Part shown: positions 2,987-4,637 of the stretch, piece by piece
Layout: every line of letters starts with the position of its first letter
How positions within the stretch are numbered: the first letter of the stretch is position 1
Source: Desulfobacteraceae bacterium
GTDB lineage: Bacteria > Desulfobacterota > DSM-4660 > Desulfatiglandales > Desulfatiglandaceae
DNA length: 64,000 bases
Direction of reading: 5' to 3'
NCBI GenBank assembly: GCA_030613055.1
Contig: JAUWMR010000016.1
Span: 1 to 64,000, forward strand
Translations under genes and position numbers: made by a program
Notes under the pieces: model-generated
The model's database searches: none
Seen by the model: the letters and a program-made list of their open reading frames with translations, nothing else
What the model was told of the DNA's origin: nothing

Positions 2987-3685
2987 TCAACTTTTTTTTA
3001 GGATCCGTCCTCTTATTCGCAGGAGAATTTCCGGTTTTTCAGCATAATTCGTCTTCAGCTTTAGTAAGCCGTAATAATTCTGGGGGGGACCGGGGACAAC
3101 GGTGAAGCGGATCCGGAATCTCTTTCCCTTTTCTATTTCATCTATACGATACCTTACTTTTCCGGCGAGATCAAACCGGATTGGTTTCAGTTTCAAAGGT
3201 TTATCCAGTTCGGCTCTGACCTGGACTGTTCTGGAGATGGTTTGCTGTTCCCTTCCATATAAATAGACCGAGTGGGCGGACAGATATATATAGCTTTTGA
3301 TACGTGCCTTTATCCCTATTCTGACCACTTTTTTGGCAGGGTCATTGGTAAATACCCTGGCAGTCTTCTGGATAGTACCGTGGTATCCCCTGGTCCGGAT
3401 CCTGAGTTTTATTTTTCCTTCCCCTCCCGGGGGAATGGCCCTGTCAAAAAGGGCAACAGAGCAACCTCAACCGGCTTTGACCTGCTTTATTTCAAGGGTT
3501 TGATCTCCCTGGTTGAGCACTTTAAATGTATGTTCGATGGTTTTTCCTTCTTTTACATGGCCGAAATCAAATAACAGCTCTTTTAAAACTATTTTAGGGC
3601 CTTTGACCTCTTCTGCCAGTACCGGATTTCCCCAGAAGGCAAAAAGGAAAAATGGTAACAGCATAGCCTTCCAAAGCCTTTTCAT
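2987..3685 (-). CDS. Exported DUF1573 protein with in-frame TGA (candidate selenoprotein)
   Basis: Read through one TGA at 3469-3467, this is a single 232-residue frame with no frameshift. Residues 1-24 are a signal peptide ending at PVLA. Residues 30-110 match the DUF1573 immunoglobulin-like fold ([18 protein letters not shown], then [16 protein letters not shown]). The family then normally has C-G-C; here codon 73 is TGA followed by Gly and Cys75, and homology continues as [17 protein letters not shown] and on to the final KKS. The stop thus replaces exactly one conserved Cys. A hairpin follows (see the SECIS entry). The ATG at 3685 has GAGGAGG eight bases upstream; an ATG at 3691 is too close to it. 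The protein is periplasmic and its function is unknown. It starts 23 bases after rex. The alternative is a nonsense mutation or base-call error. Confidence 0.75.
3435..3457 (-). promoter_or_regulatory. Candidate bacterial SECIS hairpin
   Basis: In the mRNA the TGA is followed after 12 bases by a hairpin: GCCCU pairs with AGGGC around a 7-base loop UUUUGAC. A weaker lower stem adds a G-U and a U-A pair around one mismatch. Bacterial SECIS elements are short stem-loops placed just inside the coding region after the UGA, usually with a G in the loop. The position fits. The loop G is not among its first two bases as in the classic consensus, so the match is partial. Confidence 0.45.
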
Positions 3686-3708: not shown

Positions 3709-4341
3709 TTAAGAATTACTTAGTTTATATGTAAGGATATCAAGTTTTGCAGTAAAGTCTATGTTTTCAACCAAACAGCTTTCAGGAACGCGAATCCTGG
3801 CAGATGAAAAATTCAGGACAGCTTTTACCCGGGCGTTCAATAGCAGGTATGCCACTCCTTGTGCTGCCGAGGGAGGTGTAGTGATAACACCAATTTCTAT
3901 ATTTAATTTCTTAACAGTCTCATTCAATTCCCTGATATCCCTGATCATTAAATTTGTGGATGTAAATTCACCGATCTTGTTGTGATCATTGTCAAAAGCG
4001 GCCACACATTTAAATCTCCTTATGGGGAGGTTTTGATGCTGGAGCAGGGCTGAGCCCAGATTTCCGATTCCTACAATACCAACATTCCAGTCGCGGTTGA
4101 TAGCTAAGTTTTTTTTGATATGGGCCTGCAGTTCTATCACATCGTATCCCACTCCACGAACACCGAATTCTCCAAAGTAACCAAGATCTTTTCTCACCTG
4201 GGCCGGGTTTACCTGGCATAACCAGGCCAGCTTTTCTGAAGAGGCCATGCGATAACCGTCAAATTCCAGAAGTTCCAGCTGCCTGTAATATATAGAAAGC
4301 CTGGTGATGGTCACTTTAGGTATTCTCGTTGAATTTGTCAT
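3709..4341 (-). CDS. rex: Redox-sensing transcriptional repressor Rex
   Basis: Rex is a dimeric repressor that senses the NADH/NAD+ ratio and releases DNA when NADH is high, controlling fermentation and anaerobic respiration genes. The N-terminal winged helix is seen in IPKVTITRLSIYYRQL and PAQVRKDLGYFGEFG, the usual Rex signature. A Rossmann NAD-binding motif follows in NVGIVGIGNLGSAL. The start at 4341 has AAAGGA upstream and gives 210 residues, the usual Rex length; upstream codons to 4407 lack a ribosome site. It heads a compact minus-strand group with the DUF1573, rnhA and flavin reductase genes, which suggests the group answers to redox state. No clear Rex operator palindrome was found upstream. 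Confidence 0.95.
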   Translation of the reverse strand: MTNSTRIPKVTITRLSIYYRQLELLEFDGYRMASSEKLAWLCQVNPAQVRKDLGYFGEFGVRGVGYDVIELQAHIKKNLAINRDWNVGIVGIGNLGSALLQHQNLPIRRFKCVAAFDNDHNKIGEFTSTNLMIRDIRELNETVKKLNIEIGVITTPPSAAQGVAYLLLNARVKAVLNFSSARIRVPESCLVENIDFTAKLDILTYKLSNS

Positions 4342-4637
4342 CCGCGGCAGTCCTTTATTCAGCCAAATGTTAAAAACCCACTCTGGCGAGAGACGCAAAC
4401 CAATCAATTTTCAACTAAATAATCATGCATAAATAGTCAATGGTCAACTGTTTTATTTGGTTTTAATATTCCAGAATTATAATGACAATGCTATAGTTGT
4501 GCTATATTATTAAAAGTATCTGCTCAATAAACCGGGGTAAGTACCTTTGCATACTATTCTAATGGATTCCCGCGTAGAGCTTGCCCCAGCGAAGGGAGGG
4601 GCGGAAATCAAAGACATACCGCCGGAGTTCGATCCAT
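4342..4637. other. Divergent promoter region between rex and the histidine kinase
   Basis: This AT-rich spacer must hold the rex promoter on the minus strand; TTGACC near 4443 with an AT-rich -10 about 17 bases on is one candidate. On the plus-strand side, 4561-4600 is a fragment of a dispersed palindromic repeat (GGATTCCCGC and GAAGGGAGGGGCGG), also seen inverted near 32692-32712. Confidence 0.4.

Follow-up and report, generated by a model that had tools for sequence, protein, structure and literature searches.

A probable selenocysteine-decoded member of the DUF1573/OS_HP2 family in a Desulfobacteraceae genome, with a candidate SECIS downstream of its in-frame TGA

The DUF1573 gene and its neighbours

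The window (the whole 64,000-nucleotide stretch analysed, from a Desulfobacteraceae bacterium) carries on its minus strand a DUF1573 gene (2987-3685). The upstream gene is rex, encoding a redox-sensing repressor (3709-4407, minus; PF06971, PF02629), and the next downstream gene is rnhA, encoding ribonuclease HI (2505-2990, minus; PF00075, E 2.9e-50). A flavin reductase-like protein is encoded further downstream (2021-2494, minus; PF01613, E 1.9e-36). The first-pass annotation had named Rex and a flavin reductase as neighbours, and these domain matches agree with it, with RNase H sitting before the flavin reductase. The rex-DUF1573-rnhA order recurs widely among relatives (rex at 28 of 70 loci, rnhA at 34 of 70), many of the loci being fragmentary. 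Downstream of the flavin reductase gene (545-1852, minus) lies the gene of a 435-aa, zinc-ribbon-headed protein that is very acidic and rich in repeats; it has no Pfam or NCBIfam match, and part of it is conserved beside the operon in relatives.

The 232-codon frame (3685-2987) is open from signal peptide to terminator save for one internal TGA (3469-3467, minus) at residue 73, and the terminator (2989-2987) is also a TGA. Reading through the internal codon gives a 232-aa protein with a signal peptide, two Ig/ASH-like domains and the motif U73-G74-C75, which is secreted, probably to the periplasm. The read-through product matches the Pfam DUF1573 model PF07610 (E 2.1e-21; 76.2 bits, above the gathering cut-off of 26.1 bits) and passes the curated cut-off of the NCBIfam "OS_HP2 family (seleno)protein" model NF041425 (111.4 bits against 100). 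The internal TGA aligns with an otherwise near-invariant cysteine of homologues, and among 23 aligned relatives the only invariant cysteine positions are U/C73 and C75. The frame, the PF07610 match and the alignment thus confirm the earlier placement of this TGA on the first cysteine of the C-G-C motif in an exported DUF1573 protein.

The AlphaFold2 model consists of two all-beta domains (pLDDT 90.5), in which U73-G-C75 occupies a turn between strands 64-71 and 76-80. Fold searches return tandem Ig-like domains, with matches to the HYDIN/ASH/SPD-2 Ig domains and to 2qsv from Porphyromonas gingivalis. The latter is a solved DUF1573-like structure that shares the tandem Ig-like fold with the window protein and matches it weakly in sequence (E 0.013), whereas the proteins matched through HYDIN/ASH/SPD-2 domains have structural roles in eukaryotes, unlike the bacterial protein of the window.

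The internal TGA among homologues

The genome contains a complete set of the selenocysteine genes sought: tRNA-Sec (71.7 bits), selA (E 6e-187), selB (E 3e-117) and two copies of selD (L018, L019). Each selD copy carries one in-frame TGA, within a GSG-U motif, and a G-rich hairpin follows the UGA in both. Other single-TGA frames of the window were also scanned, with a filter that would miss the DUF1573 gene itself because this gene ends in TGA, and the scan gave no convincing second selenoprotein in the window.

Matches occur in 69 of the 85 genomes of the same order, and almost every full-length close match holds exactly one TGA. The codon at the selenocysteine column is TGA at 64 of 70 order-level loci and TGT or TGC at the other six. 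A single-sequence scan of contigs from named genomes gave no match, and an alignment-based repeat supplied the loci; TGA is found at 78 of these 79, a biased ratio since the set was selected by pattern and overlaps the order-level one. The carriers include five cultured strains (Desulfoferrobacter suflitae, Desulfacinum infernum, Desulfacinum hydrothermale, Desulfocicer vacuolatum and Desulfamplus magnetovallimortis), and tRNA-Sec is present in all five. Both the Sec and the Cys form also occur in a phylum-wide sample.

When the sets are combined, the 149 distinct homologues comprise 120 with Sec (TGA), 28 with Cys (TGC/TGT) and one with Thr, so that the TGA proposed for the window gene is common in the family, with TGC or TGT as its alternative. 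On the tree of these homologues the state at this codon has changed at least eight times. The single Thr belongs to L147 (Syntrophobacteraceae), where T-G-C stands in place of the Sec or Cys of all other homologues and the pair with the second Cys is therefore lost. After the TGA, dN/dS ranges from 0.07 to 0.45 in eleven pairs, similar to the portion before it; purifying selection persists downstream of the codon.

The family itself is not new. The entry "DUF1573 domain-containing protein, PF07610, UGC" appears in two reviews on selenoproteins, and the U-G-C motif of the window protein, with its one Sec, matches this entry (PMC9312934, PMC13188914). The review entries credit the DUF1573 UGC selenoprotein to the 2007 study of the Olavius algarvensis Delta 1 symbiont by Zhang and Gladyshev (PMC9312934, PMC13188914). 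The first-pass suggestion that the gene adds DUF1573 with a U-G-C motif is accordingly wrong, as family and motif are already given in both reviews and in NF041425. The NF041425 and Olavius proteins resemble the window protein in domain, motif and bacterial group, and nothing essential differs; the window copy has a second Ig-like domain (in the model) and lies in a rex/rnhA operon. Membership of the gene in this selenoprotein family, known since 2007, is well supported, and the gene is an ordinary representative of it.

The RNA downstream of the TGA

An overlapping RNA element of two hairpins follows the codon. The proximal one, H1 (3438-3454, minus; +13 to +29 after the TGA), has the form GCCC-UUUUUGACA-GGGC and starts 12 nt past the TGA; it is the hairpin that the first-pass annotation had noticed. 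The distal one, H2 (3417-3438, minus; +29 to +50; CCATTCCCCCGGGAGGGGAAGG), which that annotation missed, carries GG in its apical loop and is the best SECIS candidate. The published bSECIS rules ask for a loop of 3-9 nt, a stem of 4-16 bp, a G in the first two loop positions, a spacing of 16-37 nt and an energy of at most -7.5 kcal/mol (PMC13188914). In the window copy H2 has the loop CGGGA, an energy of -10.1 kcal/mol and a distance of 37 nt from the UGA, and it conforms to every one of these constraints; the spacing is at the far limit of the accepted UGA-loop range, and the stem is interrupted. The first register tried for H2 was not the favoured one.

Folding of the single sequence is uninformative: the 66-nt stretch after the TGA folds no better than its dinucleotide shuffles (z 0.25). 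An Rfam scan of the DUF1573 region returned no curated RNA, and the consensus from RNAalifold was no more than weak, since the register of the stem shifts among sequences. The comparative evidence is stronger. Among 93 testable columns, the synonymous bias at third bases peaks in the codons that directly follow the TGA, where it averages 0.75 against 0.18 (p = 8e-6), and eight of the ten most biased columns fall within codons +1 to +18. When the codons of 116 Sec homologues are randomised synonymously, the pairing of H1 (+12 to +15 with +27 to +30) stands out at a z of about 20, and that of H2 (the stem around the GG loop at +40/+41) at about 18. The same randomisation of 19 Cys homologues at the same spacing yields no significant pairing (H1 z 0.9, H2 z 0.6); in this small set one of five measures, the local energy at +10 to +33, is mildly low (z -2.7). 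The hairpin reported 12 bases past the TGA is thus real across homologues, while its single-sequence energy is unexceptional.

Covariation within H2 can be followed at the third bases of the P-P-G-G codons (+36 and +45). Where +36 is C the pair is C-G in 44 of 47 sequences, and where it is G the pair is G-C in 11 of 12. With T at +36 the partner at +45 varies, which a shift of the bulge would fit. A phylogenetically paired test of this covariation goes in the expected direction and stays below significance with few independent pairs. H1 is under selection too, so that the RNA element may be bipartite.

These results bear on the ways in which the TGA could be something other than a selenocysteine codon. 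As a genuine stop it would end a protein of 72-74 aa and leave the remainder as a relic or as a separately restarted gene, for which a GTG at 3328 offers a possible start; the unexceptional single-sequence fold is also compatible with this. Against it stand the recurrence of this TGA in 120 distinct homologues with intact frames, the purifying selection on the part that follows, the fact that Cys alone commonly replaces it, the Sec machinery and the synonymous constraint past the codon. Because different families and cultured strains keep the TGA at this one codon, a stop or pseudogene is effectively refuted and left as very improbable. That an error of sequencing or assembly turned TGC or TGT into TGA might be suspected of a draft genome in 97 contigs, but the codon recurs in genomes obtained independently, among them those of cultured strains and assemblies in a single contig; at the level of the family this account is refuted, and for the window copy it is very improbable. 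A pseudogene, a sequencing error and a plain stop are excluded by the conservation pattern of the TGA column together with dN/dS.

There is likewise only a very slight probability that the UGA is decoded otherwise, as Trp or Cys or by plain read-through. Read-through is possible in principle, but it is almost always Cys that the UGA replaces, the RNA element is detectable in TGA forms only, and UGA is also an ordinary stop here because the DUF1573 gene itself ends in TGA. Each of the sequence-based checks that the first-pass annotation had suggested (Sec machinery, TGA in homologues, a bSECIS hairpin) favours selenocysteine. The window gene is thus almost certainly a Sec-decoded member of the DUF1573/OS_HP2 family, a confidence that covers decoding and membership and leaves the redox role to be judged separately.

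Paralogue neighbourhoods and a proposed periplasmic role

Sec-DUF1573 paralogues are found co-directional with genes for thioredoxin, CcdA/DsbD-TM, a transporter and/or rhodanese (L172, L146, L155, L101, L103, L119). The proteins encoded there (L172:5822-10655 and the other five loci) include a SurA_N-thioredoxin fusion, CcdA, an SBF transporter and a rhodanese whose N-terminus bears a hydrophobic segment. In the literature searched, such a neighbourhood of Sec-DUF1573 was not found described. This arrangement belongs to the paralogues and not to the rex-linked window copy, and the CcdA adjacency comes from genomes other than those of the five cultured strains. The same genome encodes a second Sec-DUF1573 paralogue (G000:C72:28874-29566; L084:2075-2767, minus) with the motif U-S-C (TGA AGC TGC), which scores 98.8 with NF041425 against the cut-off of 100 and adjoins a 4-hydroxyphenylacetate 3-hydroxylase-like gene. 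In six further genomes (G058, G059, G061, G062, G039 and G040) a second stretch resembling the C-terminal domain (query residues ~126-231) follows just past Sec-DUF1573 on the same strand and lacks a TGA.

SelB-GTP-Sec-tRNA, guided by the RNA element within about 50 nt past the UGA, very probably inserts Sec at residue 73, and translation then continues to the TGA at 2989-2987. After export, U73-G-C75 in the turn of the first Ig-like domain may cycle between a selenosulfide and a selenol-thiol pair, making the protein a redox relay or a thiol/sulfane-sulfur oxidoreductase that CcdA/thioredoxin systems of the membrane could feed. The operon with DUF1573 would be redox-responsive, with Rex and the flavin reductase as part of it. 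Sep15/SelM-type C-x-U oxidoreductases, also exported or luminal and with a close Sec-Cys pair, are a possible functional analogue; they are non-homologous, with a thioredoxin-like fold and Cys first, whereas the window protein has an Ig/ASH-like fold and the order U-x-C.

A periplasmic selenol-thiol redox role is suggested because the paralogues adjoin CcdA, thioredoxin and rhodanese genes, and the conserved rex-DUF1573-rnhA order also counts for it; no activity or function of any DUF1573 protein was found in the literature searched. The main rival accepts the insertion of Sec and gives the UGC pair another task, either the binding of a soft metal or metalloid or a structural one, with no thiol redox cycling. 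The Ig/ASH-like fold is usually non-catalytic and some paralogues adjoin cation-efflux or transporter genes, both of which speak for such a role, but the position of Sec at the first Cys of C-x-C, its exchange with Cys, and the thioredoxin, CcdA and rhodanese genes beside paralogues favour redox chemistry, so that metal binding or a structural role appears possible and somewhat unlikely. The chance is roughly even that the window protein works in the periplasm as a selenol-thiol relay or as a redox protein that handles sulfur. A more specific proposal, in which H1 (+12 to +30) folds the spacer away so that the distal H2 (+32 to +51) of a bipartite SECIS reaches SelB, and in which the family serves sulfur redox as a periplasmic selenol relay with an Ig-like fold in place of a thioredoxin one, is speculative and as a whole rather unlikely. 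Without such folding the GG loop of H2 would sit at, or past, the greatest UGA distance that is accepted; synonymous sites conserve the two hairpins in Sec homologues and not detectably in Cys homologues.

What this analysis adds to earlier knowledge of the family is that it is broadly distributed, that an overlapping RNA element of two hairpins follows its TGA, that the gene order rex-DUF1573-rnhA is conserved, and that paralogues lie beside CcdA, thioredoxin and rhodanese genes. The gene is also an annotation trap, in that plain gene callers truncate the exported protein at residue 72 although the complete selenoprotein occurs widely across Desulfobacterota. The comparative RNA evidence provides a concrete and testable SECIS for the DUF1573/OS_HP2 family, and the neighbourhoods of the paralogues suggest a plausible source of electrons for the DUF1573 selenoprotein.
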